Source: a virus
Virus record (IMG/VR): IMGVR_UViG_3300035523_000010
Span: 1-21,808 of that record
Length of the DNA stretch: 21,808 nt
Strand: one strand, 5' to 3'
Part shown: in pieces, positions 4,874-21,492 of the stretch
How positions within the stretch are numbered: the first letter of the stretch is position 1
Layout of the letters: each line of letters starts with the position of its first letter
The notes under the pieces: generated by a model
Databases searched by the model: none
What the model was told of the DNA's origin: nothing
Seen by the model: only the letters and a program-made list of their open reading frames with translations
Made by a program: the position numbers and the translations under genes

Positions 4874-6130
4874 CTACCATACATAAGAGTCATATCCGGT
4901 AATTCCGCGTTTACTAAGTTGTTGCAATATTTCTTCCTTACTAGCCCCACCTTGTTTCGCTTGGTTAATAGCATTGGCTACCGGATCGTTCTGATCTTGC
5001 TGTTGTGCTTGTTGCTGTTGCTGTTGTGGATCTTGCGAATTATATTCTCCACCGCTTGAAATTTTCCAATATTGATTCATGCTTCCCATTGCTGTCTCTG
5101 CCGCCCGTTGAAGCGCAGGAGTAATCGTATCATTGTCTTTGGCTTCATTATATTGGTCAATAGTAGCTTGATCTCGATGGTATCCGCCTAATTCATAGGT
5201 TTGCGCCCACGTAGATGCTTTGTCAAGTTTGGTGGATCCACCTCTTCCTCTGCCAGATCCGCGCATAGAAGCGGCTTGCAGCGTAGTAGCGTTATTCATC
5301 CCGGTAGTTTTAATTTTAGTATCATTATTTGCAATGTTATCAGGAGATTGATTAATAGCAGTTTTGTTACCAAAAGTACCATTGTTTTTGTCAAATGCAG
5401 TTTGCGAATCGCCAGTATTGACCGTAGAATAATCATGTTTAAAATCTTTATATGCCGTGCCCACATCATAGCCGAATTGCTGTTTTAATCTTGCAGCTAG
5501 TGCAGCCTGTTGCATAGGATCATTAGTACCTTGAAACTGTTGCAATAATGCTTGTGTTTGCTGTTGATTGTAATTGCTAGTATGCTCCGCTATCTTGTCC
5601 TGTGCAGCCTGTTGAAGCAAAGGCAACACCTCGTTAGGCTTATATCCTTTTTTAACAAGTGCTTGCATTGCGGAAGGTATCTGAGATTTTATCATATTAG
5701 TTTGTTCCATGAGCGATTTTGGCGCTGATGTAGTAGTTTGAGTAGGGTTATTGGCTTGCGAGTATTGATCCATAGGATTAGTGATATTATAGTTGTTTGG
5801 TTGTTGTTGCGCTTGTTGCTGTGGTTGCTGCATAACTTGTCCCAATAATCCTTGTCCCAACATACTAGCATCAGGTGATTGCTGATTAAAATTAGTAGGT
5901 AATAATCCTTGTGATATTTGCTGCATACCTGCGCTGTTTTGCGGGGTTAAGTCTTGTGTTGTGGTTTGGTTGCCATAGTCAAGGTTATTCAAGTCTTGTC
6001 CAAACTTCGCAACGTCACCATACATATTAGATTCTTGTCGCTGTCTCGCGTTGTGTCCCATGACATTACCAATCAAATTAAATAATCCCTCATATAAGTT
6101 CGGCCCCGGTGTTGACATTCTATAATTCAT
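4874..6130 (-). CDS. Q-rich internal virion / ejection protein (418 aa)
   Basis: A 418-residue, strongly Gln/Asn-rich protein between two other putative ejection proteins. The N-terminus (about 1-50) contains a short amphipathic stretch, LYEGLFNLIGNVMGHNARQ. Homopolymeric stretches such as PQQQQQQAQQQ occur near residues 365-375 and QQPQQQAQQQ near 101-110. The C-terminal 30 residues (ANAINQAKQGG then EEILQQLSKRG) look helical. The start at 6130 is supported by AGGAGGTGA 5 nt upstream; an internal ATG at 6118 is less well placed. By position it would match P22 gp7/gp20-type or T7 gp15-type ejection proteins, but composition bias hides any homology I could recognise. Confidence 0.65.
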   Translation of the reverse strand: MNYRMSTPGPNLYEGLFNLIGNVMGHNARQRQESNMYGDVAKFGQDLNNLDYGNQTTTQDLTPQNSAGMQQISQGLLPTNFNQQSPDASMLGQGLLGQVMQQPQQQAQQQPNNYNITNPMDQYSQANNPTQTTTSAPKSLMEQTNMIKSQIPSAMQALVKKGYKPNEVLPLLQQAAQDKIAEHTSNYNQQQTQALLQQFQGTNDPMQQAALAARLKQQFGYDVGTAYKDFKHDYSTVNTGDSQTAFDKNNGTFGNKTAINQSPDNIANNDTKIKTTGMNNATTLQAASMRGSGRGRGGSTKLDKASTWAQTYELGGYHRDQATIDQYNEAKDNDTITPALQRAAETAMGSMNQYWKISSGGEYNSQDPQQQQQQAQQQDQNDPVANAINQAKQGGASKEEILQQLSKRGITGYDSYVW

Positions 6131-7188: not shown

Positions 7189-7523
7189 TAAATCACCATC
7201 CTTTCAAACTTCCATGTTCCATTTATGTTAGACACTGCTTTTGATTTATATAGCCGTTCAAGTCTCTTTGGTTTTTCTGTGTTGGAATAAGCCACTATTT
7301 TATTGCATCCCATAGTTTTAGCTACCCAAGGAATCAAGTTATTCCAAAATAAAAGATGGCCTATGCATTCACGCATGACCATCTCATCACCACATATTTC
7401 GTATTGGAACATTCCGTTTTCTTCATCGAATACCTCGTAACATTTCTTTTCGAAGAATAAATCTACTTCTCCATGCTTTTTAGCTTGATTATCATGATAA
7501 GTTATCCATTCTTCGCGTGTCAT
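7188..7523 (-). CDS. Possible GNAT-like phage protein (111 aa)
   Basis: A 111-residue protein just before the ejection protein genes. The C-terminal half (WVAKTMGCNKIVAYSN then RLERLYKSKAV) resembles the last part of a GNAT acetyltransferase, where a helix, a strand and the 'aliphatic residue at end of chain' helix precede a final strand (WKFERMVI). The acetyl-CoA binding loop (Q/RxxGxG/A) is not evident, so an active enzyme is doubtful. T7 gp13 and related podovirus internal proteins are GNAT-like and lie in the same genomic place, so a structural or assembly role is possible. The ATG overlaps the upstream stop by 4 nt (ATGA). Confidence 0.5.
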   Translation of the reverse strand: MTREEWITYHDNQAKKHGEVDLFFEKKCYEVFDEENGMFQYEICGDEMVMRECIGHLLFWNNLIPWVAKTMGCNKIVAYSNTEKPKRLERLYKSKAVSNINGTWKFERMVI

Positions 7524-9433: not shown

Positions 9434-10869
9434 ATCCCCACCTCCACTACGTCAATTGATAAATTTCTAATTGCCATTCTTCCAGTTTGTACAGTTAAAA
9501 CAACTTGTACCGTACTAGTTCTCTTTCGTGTTCTTTTCTTTTTAGTTGTAAAATTAACTGGTATAACTGGTTCGGTATCAGTATTAGCTATATTTGCATC
9601 AGTGTTAGCAATCGAAGAGGTAGAAGCAAATGTAATCGGAAATATTTTACTTCCAACATTCAAAATACAATTACCAGCTAGAAAATTATAGCTTAGAAAA
9701 TTAACGTATTTAATAAGATATTTTTTATGTTTAGGAACAAAACTTTTAGTAGCGATAATGGACTGAAAATGAACACCATCATCAGTATCAAGTTTTTCAT
9801 CCAACTTACCTATCTTTGTTCCGTAAGCAACATAAATGTCATTTCCTTTACTTACTACGTCATAAATAGGATATTGGAAATATCTTTTCGACCAAGAATT
9901 AATATTATAATGATAGATTAATACTTCATTTTGATTTGACGATTTTACCCACACTTGTTTTCTAACTGGTAAATGCCACATTTTAGTTGTAGCATCAATA
10001 TTCTGCACTAACCACCCATTGATCATATATCCAGGGCTAGGATCATCAACTTTAATTGATCCGTAAGCAACTACTGTAGAAAAACTATTAAACCCTTCTT
10101 GCCCCATAAAAAAAGCCCTATTTTGCAAGGACATTCCACTGTATTGATTGTATGCATATGTTTTTTGTGCTATTGGAACAGCTGCAACCTGTGCAAAATT
10201 ATTTTCACTTGTTATCCTATAAGCAGTGCCGGAGGTTTTAATTACTATAGAATCAGTTGATAATTTAATTGAACAGGCAATTTGTGAAGCATCCTTATAA
10301 CCAACATTAACAAATTGCGCGGTGGATATGTCTGTAGGAGTATTTGTCCACCCTGTATAGTCTCCAATTGCCGAATAATTTTTTACATCGGAATTAATAT
10401 TAAACGCTTCAACACGGCCATTATTGTGTGCAACCCAATGCGATAATGGACTGCTTGGTACCGTTGATAATGTTGTTCCGCTAACTACCTTTTGTATTTG
10501 GCCGCCACTAGCGATCAATACAACATTATCATATAAAGCATAGATAGGTTTATATGTGCCCGTAAGTGTCCCCAACAGCGTTTTGGTAATAAAGTCAGTG
10601 GTATATAAATTAATTCCGCTAGAAAACAACCATACGCTATGAACCGTATCATAAAATAAGGTTTCTGCATTAACTAGAAGATCAATTTGTCTCGATATTC
10701 CCGGTACTACCTGCGGCTGGTTTAATAGTGTCCCATATTCCCAATTATCCATTTGCGCCACTGTATTATCTGGAATTGACTCAGGGTTTGCAATTAAACA
10801 TAACCCTCCCATGATATTGTCCATATTAATAGTTATTTGTCCTTCATTTTTTGTTGATTGAGATGGCAT
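9430..10869 (-). CDS. Tail nozzle / stabilisation protein, beta-propeller type
   Basis: A 479-residue protein located after the two adaptor genes, the place of the nozzle (SU10) or P22 gp10 in short-tailed phages. The opening (GGLCLIANPESIPDNTVAQM onward, with NWEYG) matches the start of such proteins, which list a segment name and then a 'G...' strand. The body is a succession of short beta strands with repeated W/Y-rich blades (HSVWLFSSGINLYTT, YDNVVLIASGGQI, VWVKSSNQNEVLIYHYN, NDIYVAYGTKIGKL), fitting a propeller. A short basic patch (TKKKRTRKRT) lies near residue 445. The start is supported by GGGAGG about 6 nt upstream. Assignment is by position plus fold-like pattern. Confidence 0.7.
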   Translation of the reverse strand: MPSQSTKNEGQITINMDNIMGGLCLIANPESIPDNTVAQMDNWEYGTLLNQPQVVPGISRQIDLLVNAETLFYDTVHSVWLFSSGINLYTTDFITKTLLGTLTGTYKPIYALYDNVVLIASGGQIQKVVSGTTLSTVPSSPLSHWVAHNNGRVEAFNINSDVKNYSAIGDYTGWTNTPTDISTAQFVNVGYKDASQIACSIKLSTDSIVIKTSGTAYRITSENNFAQVAAVPIAQKTYAYNQYSGMSLQNRAFFMGQEGFNSFSTVVAYGSIKVDDPSPGYMINGWLVQNIDATTKMWHLPVRKQVWVKSSNQNEVLIYHYNINSWSKRYFQYPIYDVVSKGNDIYVAYGTKIGKLDEKLDTDDGVHFQSIIATKSFVPKHKKYLIKYVNFLSYNFLAGNCILNVGSKIFPITFASTSSIANTDANIANTDTEPVIPVNFTTKKKRTRKRTSTVQVVLTVQTGRMAIRNLSIDVVEVGI

Positions 10870-19149: not shown

Positions 19150-19659
19150 TTATTCCTCCACCAGATTCACATTAATAGTAAGGTCTGCACCATCCTTGCC
19201 GGTAATCTCAGTTTTATCCGTAAACAACTTTAAATGCTTGCCAAGCATCGAAAGTGCATTATCCTTACAATATAGCTTAAACTTAAAACTTCCATCTTTA
19301 CCGCAGGATACCTCAGCAATATTTTTAGTGTTAATAGTCTTACTATCCTTGATCTTAGTACGAACATCACCAGTATCGGGATCGTTGTAAAACTCCAAGT
19401 AGTTACTAATATCATCAAATGCAATATCTGCAATCTCATTAATTACCCTATCGGCACTAACCAATATTCTTTTTTCCTGTTCTTCTAATTGTTTGTCAAT
19501 CATTTCTTGCACCTTAACATTGGTTAACAACCTACTAGCCTGATTCTCCGCAGTTTTAGGAGAGTATCCGGCTCGTATAGCTGCCGCCTTTCCATTTCTT
19601 GGAAACTCAGATATATATTCAGCGACAAATATACGCTGTTGTGCTGTCAAATCTGCCAT
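19150..19659 (-). CDS. terS: Terminase small subunit
   Basis: A 169-residue Terminase_2-family protein. LTAQQRIFVAEYISEF, then NGKAAAIRAGYSPKTAENQ and ASRLLTNVKVQEMI, are the helix-turn-helix and following helix of this family ('lt.kq..Fv..yl...n...Aa..AGYs...A...a..ll.n..v...i'). A coiled-coil oligomerisation region (EEQEKRILVSADRVINEIAD) and a beta-rich C-terminal part follow, which in homologues contacts the large subunit. It binds the phage packaging site and loads the motor. The start has AAGGAGGTG about 7 nt upstream. The usual adjacent position to terL is interrupted here by three small genes. Confidence 0.9.
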   Translation of the reverse strand: MADLTAQQRIFVAEYISEFPRNGKAAAIRAGYSPKTAENQASRLLTNVKVQEMIDKQLEEQEKRILVSADRVINEIADIAFDDISNYLEFYNDPDTGDVRTKIKDSKTINTKNIAEVSCGKDGSFKFKLYCKDNALSMLGKHLKLFTDKTEITGKDGADLTINVNLVEE

Positions 19660-19714
19660 ACCTTAACACCTCCTTAACTCCGCATCCAACATTACCACCA
19701 TATCTCGAGCAGCA

Positions 19715-19894
19715 TTACCTCACCGCCATACATAGTGGCTCGATAAAATAATAAACATTATTCATTGTTACTTTAGTATTGATAACCACAGGTTGATGTT
19801 TGCCACAACTGCAAGCAATAATGATCTTGTCATTAAATAAATTTATCTTTGCTTGATCGCAACAAGCATCACTAATGTACTTTGGATCATTCAC
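19715..19894 (-). CDS. Small Cys-containing protein (59 aa), GTG start
   Basis: A 59-codon frame whose GTG start overlaps the previous stop (GTGA) and has GGGAGGG about 5 nt upstream. The product (VNDPKYISDACCDQAKINLF, then IIIACSCGKHQPVVINT) has a CC pair and a CSC knuckle, suggesting a small metal-binding fold. It ends in a hydrophobic strand-like region (NNVYYFIEPLCMAVR). The terminase small subunit gene follows after 55 nt. No family is recognised. Confidence 0.55.
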   Translation of the reverse strand: MNDPKYISDACCDQAKINLFNDKIIIACSCGKHQPVVINTKVTMNNVYYFIEPLCMAVR

Positions 19895-20019
19895 ACCAAT
19901 TCCCTCCCCAACACCCTATCCGCACACTTACACCGATCGCCATCCCAATTGACACAATTGCAGCAGTTTACAATGTCTTGTTTGGCTGCAACGTAGTAAT
20001 CACATTGGTTCTTGTTCAT
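19891..20019 (-). CDS. Cys-rich mini-protein (42 aa)
   Basis: A 42-codon frame starting at ATG 20019 with TTGGAGG 7 nt upstream. The product has six cysteines (NCCNC, then RCKC) around NWDGDR, similar to the small Cys clusters of other mini-proteins in this window. It is the first minus-strand gene left of the divergent promoter region, so it probably begins a transcript. No family is recognised. The call rests on the ribosome binding site, the coupling with the next gene and the cysteine pattern. Confidence 0.6.
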   Translation of the reverse strand: MNKNQCDYYVAAKQDIVNCCNCVNWDGDRCKCADRVLGRELV

Positions 20020-20066
20020 ATTTAAACCTCCAAAAAAAATAAATTAAAACTTTTTATATATTTTGA

Positions 20067-20095
20067 TTGACGTATTACTTTAATCATGTTATACT
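20067..20095 (+). promoter_or_regulatory. Sigma-70/SigA-type promoter with extended -10
   Basis: TTGACG (20067-20072) and TATACT (20090-20095) are separated by exactly 17 bp, with TG at 20087-20088 giving an extended -10. An AT-rich tract (20041-20064) lies upstream as a possible UP element. Transcription would start near 20102 and run into three plus-strand genes. A short stem GTTGC/GCAAC (20117-20133) lies in the leader. Confidence 0.85.
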
Positions 20096-20154
20096 TAAGT
20101 CAGATAAAGGGTTGCAGTTGCAAAAATGGCAACGAACCACAAGGAGCGTTTTAA

Positions 20155-20367
20155 ATGGCAACATCAATTTTTGATCTTAAATCTGCGAAAGAAAAATTAG
20201 AAGAGCTAAGAAGTGAGAGGATAACATTCGAAAAGTTACATATAAAAGATGAAGAAATATTAATGGTTGAAAATTTAGAATACAGATTATTAATTGCACA
20301 AATTAACTGGTTAGCGCAGCATATAGAAGAAACTGAACCTAACGTGGTAATAAAATGGGAACTGTAG
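20155..20367 (+). CDS. Helical small protein (70 aa), first gene of the plus-strand cassette
   Basis: A 70-residue protein read from ATG 20155 after AAGGAG. Residues 8-40 are a coiled coil (LKSAKEKLEELRSERITFEK), and residues 45-60 form a second helix (LEYRLLIAQINWLAQHIEE). The end is VVIKWEL. It is the first product of a short transcript with its own promoter, pointing against the neighbouring genes. No family is recognised. A small coiled-coil protein in a moron could be an inhibitor or regulator, but that is conjecture. Confidence 0.72.
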   Translation: MATSIFDLKSAKEKLEELRSERITFEKLHIKDEEILMVENLEYRLLIAQINWLAQHIEETEPNVVIKWEL

Positions 20368-20504
20368 GACACGGTGGCAAGCGCCTAGGAGCAGGCAACA
20401 AACCAATCCCCAATCCCCTACCAGTAAGATCAATCCGATGCACCACCACCGAATACCAGCAACTTAAAGAGTATCTAAAAAAGTTAAGGAGTGAAGCGAA
20501 ATGA
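20355..20504 (+). CDS. Small GKRLGAGNKP-type phage protein (49 aa)
   Basis: A 49-codon frame overlapping the previous gene by 13 nt and the next by 4 nt (ATGA). The N-terminus GHGGKRLGAGNKPIPNP matches the 'GG.R.GAGRkp' opening common to small phage and transposon-associated DNA-binding proteins. It is followed by PVRSIRCTTTEYQQLKEYLK, in which 'RsiR.t..Ey..Lk.yl' resembles a ribbon-helix-helix-like strand and helix. It may therefore bind DNA and autoregulate the cassette. No strong Shine-Dalgarno is present, so expression probably depends on coupling. Confidence 0.65.
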   Translation: MGTVGHGGKRLGAGNKPIPNPLPVRSIRCTTTEYQQLKEYLKKLRSEAK

Positions 20505-20710
20505 AAAATTTAACTAACTGGCTTACTAAAAATGGTTACGATTACACTGTAAACAGCCTACATCAAGGTGGTAATTGTGTTTTTATAAATATCTTTGAAT
20601 TGCCGAAAACCCTAGAAAGCAACATTTATAAGCATTTAAAAAGAATAAAATTATCATTCCAATACGCCGGCCACTACACATCTATACGGATTGATTTTAA
20701 ACCAGCCTAA
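20501..20710 (+). CDS. Small alpha/beta protein (69 aa), last gene of the plus-strand cassette
   Basis: A 69-residue protein from ATG 20501 with AAGGAG 9 nt upstream, inside the end of the previous gene. The plan is helix (MKNLTNWLTKNG), strand (YDYTVNSL), strand (NCVFINIFEL), helix (TLESNIYKHLKRIK), strand (SFQYAG) and strand (TSIRIDF), a compact two-layer fold. It ends in KPA, and the coding end forms the left arm of the terminator. No family is recognised, and no membrane or catalytic motif is seen. Confidence 0.7.
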   Translation: MKNLTNWLTKNGYDYTVNSLHQGGNCVFINIFELPKTLESNIYKHLKRIKLSFQYAGHYTSIRIDFKPA

Positions 20711-20725
20711 CAAGCTGGTTTTCCT
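20699..20725 (+). terminator. Intrinsic terminator of the plus-strand cassette
   Basis: AAACCAGC (20699-20706) pairs perfectly with GCTGGTTT (20714-20721) across a CTAACAA loop, and TCCTCTTTT follows. The left arm contains the last codons of the 69-residue gene, and its stop codon (20708-20710) lies in the loop. The cassette thus ends 4-8 nt before the converging minus-strand gene's stop at 20729. Confidence 0.82.
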
Positions 20726-20728
20726 CTT

Positions 20729-20890
20729 TTACCTACACCTCTCCACATCCACACCCTTATTCCTCCTGCAAAACTCTGCAAACCCTACAAAACTGACACA
20801 TCTACCATCATCATCAATCCTGATGCGCTGCAACATACATACTTCCTTTCCTCTATTCACGCAACCGTCTACATTGCATACCGCTTGCAT
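20729..20890 (-). CDS. Cys-rich mini-protein (53 aa)
   Basis: A 53-codon frame starting 1 nt after the previous stop. The product (MQAVCNVDGCVNRGKEVC, then MLQRIRIDDDGRCVSF) has the spacing C-x4-C-x7-C-x12-C, with further cysteines near the end (FCRR, ERCR). It resembles a zinc-binding DUF1540-like mini-domain and pairs with the gene upstream, which shows a related pattern. Its stop lies just beyond the convergent plus-strand terminator. There is no strong Shine-Dalgarno, so coupling is likely. Confidence 0.6.
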   Translation of the reverse strand: MQAVCNVDGCVNRGKEVCMLQRIRIDDDGRCVSFVGFAEFCRRNKGVDVERCR

Positions 20891-20891
20891 A

Positions 20892-21050
20892 TTAATACAC
20901 TCCCTCTTCTTCTAACTCAGCAACCTTTCTCCAAAATTCTTCTTCCTGTTTCTGCGCTATTTTATTAGACCTGCATTCTTGCACATTAATAGTTTCTCTG
21001 CCGCATTGTTCGCGGTCATTATATACGCATGTTCTATCGTAGCAAAACAT
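20892..21050 (-). CDS. Cys-rich mini-protein (52 aa), DUF1540-like pattern
   Basis: A 52-codon frame with AAGGAAG about 7 nt before ATG 21050. The first half, CYDRTCVYNDREQCGRETI followed by NVQEC, fits the C-x4-C-x-YN-x4-C...I.V..C pattern I associate with DUF1540-like small proteins of Bacillota and their phages. The second half is a charged helix (QKQEEEFWRKVAELEEEG). It is adjacent to a related mini-protein. Four cysteines could hold one metal. The molecular role is unknown. Confidence 0.65.
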   Translation of the reverse strand: MFCYDRTCVYNDREQCGRETINVQECRSNKIAQKQEEEFWRKVAELEEEGVY

Positions 21051-21079
21051 ATTCTTACTTCCTTTTAGACATAATAAAT

Positions 21080-21106
21080 AGACTCCCTCGCTTATGAAGG
21101 AGTCTT
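21080..21106 (-). terminator. Hairpin terminator between early-region genes
   Basis: AGACTCC (21080-21086) and GGAGTCT (21099-21105) form a perfect 7-bp stem with a 12-nt loop. On the minus strand it is followed by ATTTATTAT and on the plus strand by TAAATTG. It lies in the 136-nt gap after the zinc-ribbon gene. The T-run is imperfect, so it may be only a partial terminator. Confidence 0.55.
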
Positions 21107-21186
21107 AAATTGTTTATTAAATTAGTACATGAGTCACGGGTACATCTTTATTGTATATTAACTTTGTCAAATATGCAATACTTTAT

Positions 21187-21492
21187 TTATGTTTGTATAA
21201 ATAATTTTTTATTTAAACTTGCAACAGTAGGTTTGTGCATCTTTTCGTTTTTTGCTCCCTTACTACTCTTGCTTCCACCGGGCAATGCCTCTCCTGCCGG
21301 TAAGCACTCTTTAGGCTTATGACTCCTTGCAAAATCTAGCATTAGGCTCTTTATCTCGCTGTCCATTTGCACATCTACGCTGTCATGGTGCCACACCTGA
21401 GCGTAACACTCCGGGCATATATGTCTATCATTAATCGCATCATATTGCATCATAACTCGGCAATCTTGGCAATACCAAGGTTTTCTACTCAT
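21187..21492 (-). CDS. Zinc-ribbon phage protein (101 aa)
   Basis: A 101-residue protein starting MSRKPWYCQDCRVMMQYD. CQDC (residues 8-11) and CPEC (26-29) form a classical zinc ribbon with HIC before the second knuckle. The middle contains an acidic helix (DSEIKSLMLDFARS), and the remainder is basic and low in structure (GGSKSSKGAKNEKMHKPT). AGGAGG lies 6 nt before the ATG. Proteins of this kind are frequent in Bacillota phage early regions, but their substrates are not known to me. Confidence 0.75.
   Translation of the reverse strand: MSRKPWYCQDCRVMMQYDAINDRHICPECYAQVWHHDSVDVQMDSEIKSLMLDFARSHKPKECLPAGEALPGGSKSSKGAKNEKMHKPTVASLNKKLFIQT

Follow-up and report, generated by a model that had tools for sequence, protein, structure and literature searches.

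Here we report that a plus-strand block of three small genes in a viral DNA fragment of 21,808 bases (IMG/VR record IMGVR_UViG_3300035523_000010, positions 1 to 21,808; hereafter the window) probably belongs to a family of exchangeable moron cassettes, in which the middle gene, B, encodes a protein that would bind and repress its own promoter while the cargo genes are swapped around it. The layout of these cassettes, the swapping, the linkage between promoter and B and the homology of the B domain were established by comparing sequences across phages, and it is from these comparisons that we infer binding and repression by B.

The minus strand of the window carries late genes. Between the minus-strand genes g42 and D, the plus strand holds in order a promoter, a leader, genes A, B and C, and a terminator; A and B overlap by 13 nt, B and C by 4 nt (ATGA), and the 5' arm of the terminator lies within the last codons of C. 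The features of the region are as follows.

19150-19659, minus strand: gene for the terminase small subunit (TerS), head-to-head with the cassette
20019-19891, minus strand: flanking gene g42, with 95% amino acid identity in contig L002
20056-20072, plus strand: upstream part of the promoter with TTTTGATTGACG, including the -35 TTGACG
20067-20095, plus strand: predicted promoter, with -35 TTGACG (20067-20072), a 17-nt spacer and -10 TATACT (20090-20095)
20087-20095, plus strand: extended -10, TGT TATACT, with TG one base before the -10, conserved with relatives
20095-20104, plus strand: right half-site TTAAGTCAG, adjoining the -10; consensus TTAAATCAA
20110-20138, plus strand: leader hairpin GGTTGCAGTTGCAAAAATGGCAACGAACC, common to the window, L046 and L173
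20141-20146, plus strand: ribosome binding site AAGGAG, 8 nt upstream of the ATG at 20155
20155-20367, plus strand: gene A, cargo of 70 aa, starting with the ATG at 20155
20355-20504, plus strand: gene B, anchor protein of 49 aa, the proposed autorepressor
20442-20493, plus strand: 3' end of B, DNA 98% identical over 52 nt to the second L002 cassette
20501-20710, plus strand: gene C, cargo of 69 aa, with its stop at 20708-20710
20699-20721, plus strand: terminator, 8 perfect pairs followed by TCCTCTTTT
20890-20729, minus strand: flanking gene D, Cys-rich, 53 aa, with 87% amino acid identity in L002

The promoter, the ribosome binding site, the gene overlaps of 13 and 4 nt, the coding terminator arm and the antiparallel flanks named in the original prediction are all present in the sequence. 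An Rfam scan of 19600-21200 returned no known RNA. Since promoter-like sites (16 seen versus 17.9 expected) and terminator-like sites (2 versus 1.9) occur in the region at chance level, the case for the block was built on comparison with other phages. These counts, and the outcome of searches of viral contigs and phage records, which found no relative of A or C, are what might be expected if three spurious open reading frames had come together by chance between minus-strand genes. We regard such an assembly as extremely improbable, because other phages have homologues of B and a conserved leader, promoter and terminator at the corresponding position; as far as B and the regulatory elements are concerned, this sequence conservation refutes it. 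Conservation elsewhere and the same layout in other phages thus place the predicted block above chance.

The only contig with a true close relative of the window B is L002, in which two plus-strand B cassettes lie between g42 and D flanks homologous to those of the window (DNA 76% identical across 19667-20048 and 86% across 20697-20900). In L002, both cassettes have a promoter of their own, a B gene and a terminator, with different first genes (135 aa in one and 121 aa, ParB-like, in the other) and different small last genes; the window terminator is 92% identical over 36 nt to L002 5140-5173. Near-identity at the 3' end of B next to unrelated cargo points to a mosaic with its joint in B, and this 3' end is likely a recombination joint, found in L002 only. 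Another candidate relative of B, in L003, proved to be a chance match on the strand opposite a terminase gene and was rejected.

Genes g42 (19891-20019), D (20729-20890) and E (20892-21050) of the window encode tiny Cys-rich proteins on the minus strand, two of which weakly resemble DUF1540, and all three recur around the L002 cassettes in changed order. A strong 10-bp terminator-like hairpin is located on the minus strand at window positions 21080-21105, upstream of gene E.

Searches with a profile of B added L046, L044 and prophages in two Negativicutes genomes, G006 (L094) and G017 (L093), while L034, found via its terminase, holds two B cassettes. The cassette stands head-to-head with the TerS gene in nine phages or prophages (the window, L002, L046, L094, L093, L044, L034, L124 and L172), with an ArpU-type late activator on its other side in L002, L046, L094 and L044; counting against the proposal, the B genes of L098 and L147 are oriented like their neighbours. 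In L005, the equivalent interval between the ArpU-type activator and TerS contains no cassette and only a tRNA-Pro (6010-6087), although L005 is close to L046, with 77% DNA identity in the activator and a 40-nt identical stretch adjoining the cassette. Thus, the block fits the earlier description of it as a moron: it is self-contained, with its own predicted promoter and terminator, both conserved in relatives, it is exchanged between homologous flanks in L002, and its equivalent is absent from L005. The opposite pattern, three genes with a core function fixed at this place in all relatives, was checked for and not seen. In the L098 prophage, two B genes (7251-7460 and 10310-10543) are flanked by an ArpU-like gene on one side and the terminase genes on the other. 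Genome searches at the family and order levels around G006 and G017 returned only these two genomes, and the cassette hosts are at least partly Negativicutes.

The B gene lies downstream of variable cargo in the window, L002, L046, L094, L034, L151, L172, L173, L147 and L158, and the recurrence of this middle gene and its promoter with different cargo suggests a self-regulating slot for exchangeable accessory genes. Each cassette of this kind has a promoter module of its own, at least one variable cargo gene, a gene for the B domain, most often overlapping or adjoining the one before it, in some cases an extra small gene, and a terminator, and is typically placed head-to-head with the TerS gene and against the late genes.

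In the aligned cassette promoters, the -10 is preceded by GG and followed by TTAAATCAA; about 38 bp upstream of it lies TTTTGAT, and the -35 is close to TTGACA. Identity over about 62 nt of the module is 77-84% among L046, L002 and L094, and 78% in L034. TTTTGAT is separated from the -10 by 29 bp in the window versus 37-39 in 11 relatives; by this spacing, the window promoter looks like the product of a 9-bp deletion, the shortening having formed its -35 from the end of TTTTGAT. A promoter pattern built from L046, L002 and L094, blind to coding sequence, matched 67 sites in 2.9 million viral contigs. A B gene was counted if it lay at most 2 kb downstream on the same strand, and the B profile used for this was trained exclusively on cassettes identified independently of the pattern. 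B follows each of the ten matches whose -35 position reads TTG, and none of the other 57. Of these ten, three are contigs from which the pattern was made or a copy of one (L048, L037 and L129), and the other seven contigs, six of them distinct, are new (L124, L151, L173, L172, L147 and the near-identical pair L120/L158). Fisher's test on 7/7 versus 0/57 gives 1.6e-9, a value that calls for caution, since the 57 include near-duplicates and the matches had already been seen when they were split by TTG. In 350 Negativicutes genomes, the L094 cassette was the single match of the pattern, and the reversed pattern, run as a control, had none. At the level of sequence, these matches show that the predicted promoter and B are linked across independent phages.

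The most likely target of B is the promoter of its own cassette, where in most members an inverted repeat surrounding the -10 element would be the binding site. Across 14 promoters, inverted symmetry around this element (TTGAT...ATCAA) was found at 48 of 84 positions versus 37.0 in shuffles, a score reached in one of 2000 shuffles, and the left half-site TGA[AT] is present in 12 of the 14. The left half-site is not recognisable in the first L002 cassette, nor in the window promoter, which makes autorepression in this particular phage the weakest step of the proposal. By repressing the promoter, B would allow a burst of cargo expression on infection, or keep the cargo at a low level in the lysogen. 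Alternatively, B could be an activator or could bind elsewhere, and the linkage of the promoter and B could reflect no more than their position at the two ends of one recombining unit.

Downstream of the promoter, the window and L046 are 83% identical over the 64 nt between the -10 and the ribosome binding site, and a search with the leader alone retrieved one contig from the viral collection. The leader hairpin has two compensatory outer pairs, which are only suggestive because three sequences were compared and the counts were reached in 49 of 500 shuffles. A leader peptide (MATNHxER in the window and L046) was considered and dropped, since L173 preserves the hairpin but not the ATG.

The B domain comprises about 42 residues in an alignment of sixteen proteins, with an xGGKRxGAGRP opening followed by a linker, a strand and then a helix that has LR at its end. 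AlphaFold placed a confident helix at residues 31-48 of the window protein, behind a loose N-terminus, and the protein ends there. The ribbon-helix-helix end suggested earlier for this protein is therefore only half present: a strand and a single helix are predicted where the fold has a strand and two helices, so that the missing second helix leaves it incomplete. Family scans gave B no convincing ribbon-helix-helix match and no curated family above its cut-off, no helix-turn-helix (HTH) family matched any of the B members scanned, and a sequence search for solved structures resembling B found none. The B profile matches the N-terminus of three UmuD-like proteins from Acinetobacter and Hydrogenophilales (1e-9 to 1e-11). 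UmuDAb of Acinetobacter baylyi needs its N-terminal domain for repression (PMC4807011). From their genus and size, and for L039 also from a neighbouring umuC-like gene, the Acinetobacter matches appear to be UmuDAb proper. The suggestion that the middle protein is a DNA-binding autoregulator gains support from these comparisons, because B co-occurs with a conserved promoter and its domain resembles the N-terminus of UmuD-like proteins.

The strand-helix part of B also matches the NCBIfam family UrfF (NF041430), annotated as 'plasmid repression protein F', in seven of ten members (best 4e-7), with bit scores below the family cut-off of 100 (30 for the best member and 13.8 for the window B). UrfF, a protein of small mobilizable plasmids (F of RSF1010), is a small autoregulator of an operon. 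Some B proteins (L002 5911-6010, L094 5913-6000, L151 8346-8618 and L172 7-228) share an N-terminal extension rich in Cys, YCTQNxGDCxTCSLVxYxxDCxN, which may add metal binding to the B domain. In Selenomonas-type proteins of about 125-137 aa (L041 5767-6141 and L064 1495-1908), a C-terminal B domain stands behind another conserved domain.

Scans of A and C against Pfam, PHROGs, PADLOC and NCBIfam gave nothing useful. A single-sequence model of C has a helix-strand-strand-helix-strand-strand order (pLDDT 81), and a structure search with it returned designed proteins and pseudopilin domains at a TM of about 0.6, with no E-value under 0.001; neither A nor C gained an informative structural neighbour. 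Several partners of B recur among the cassettes. ParB-like proteins occur in the second L002 cassette and in L034 (mutual similarity 6e-4) and, by eye, in L172; a cargo protein of 65-68 aa is common to L046 and L151 (66% identity); HNH/AP2-type endonucleases adjoin B in L094, L034 and L173; and small hydrophobic peptides, membrane-spanning by appearance, accompany it in L093, L045 and L070. None of these recurrent partners explains A or C.

The endonuclease neighbours would fit a reading of the cassettes as remnants or passengers of free-standing HNH homing elements, with B as the accessory DNA-binding domain of the element. This origin seems very unlikely, as the cassettes of the window, L002 and L046 have no endonuclease and homing does not require a conserved promoter and terminator of its own; within the repressor-anchored cassette that we favour, HNH homing may be a means of spread. 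The hydrophobic partners are instead compatible with a prophage-encoded defence or superinfection exclusion system, whose cargo would shield the lysogen against other phages, at a level set by B. Its own promoter and terminator would permit expression from the prophage, and phage accessory hotspots often hold such genes (PMC9122126), but PADLOC models gave no match and A and C of the window appear soluble, and we consider such a function unlikely here.

An anti-defence operon would be a sharper form of the favoured explanation, adding a function for the cargo: A, C or both would block a host immune system, with B as a non-HTH repressor resembling the anti-CRISPR-associated Aca proteins. The layout and the promoter-B logic resemble those of acr-aca operons (PMC9410906), the cassette cargo is small and fast-changing, and anti-defence genes of archaeal viruses have been found via conserved regulatory sequences (PMC11065993). 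Against this stand the known Aca1-10, which are HTH proteins (PMC9410906) while B is not, and the tested cargo, including A and C, which matched no known anti-CRISPR or anti-defence family; we therefore treat an anti-defence role as possible but doubtful. The fuller proposal, that B represents a new non-HTH class of Aca-like autorepressors over anti-defence cassettes in Negativicutes phages, with A and C themselves acting in anti-defence, strikes us as rather unlikely. If true, it would make the promoter module usable for finding many unknown anti-defence genes.

The finding of an exchangeable cassette is real and extends beyond what the window alone shows. With a regulator domain and a promoter that stay linked while the cargo varies, accessory phage genes can be sought by association, in the way that aca genes led to anti-CRISPRs, and the literature searched on this phage group describes no such cassettes. 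A further suggestion from the comparison is that phages encode the N-terminal module of UmuD-like repressors, a module that has been little studied, as a protein on its own.

Among known systems, Aca proteins are, by analogy, the closest functional counterpart of B. They repress acr-aca operons via inverted repeats inside core promoters (PMC9410906), and these operons, like the B cassettes, combine small variable genes and a conserved small regulator in one operon. Most B cassettes have a candidate for such a repeat, which is not recognisable in the window; the differences are that Aca1-10 are HTH proteins and B is not, and that there is no known Acr among the B-cassette cargo. UrfF has a C-terminal strand-helix segment similar to that of B, whereas its matches exclude the GGKRxGAGR opening and score far short of the cut-off set for the family. 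The N-terminal domain of UmuDAb has the same module as B, HGGKRxGAGRK followed by a strand and a helix, and in UmuDAb this domain is required for repression; UmuDAb differs in possessing a self-cleaving C-terminal domain, which B lacks. Finally, phage morons resemble the block in having their own promoter and terminator, a reversed orientation, and a pattern of being present, swapped or absent among relatives. In contrast to these morons, the B cassettes, many of them unrelated, have a single regulator domain and a single promoter module in common.
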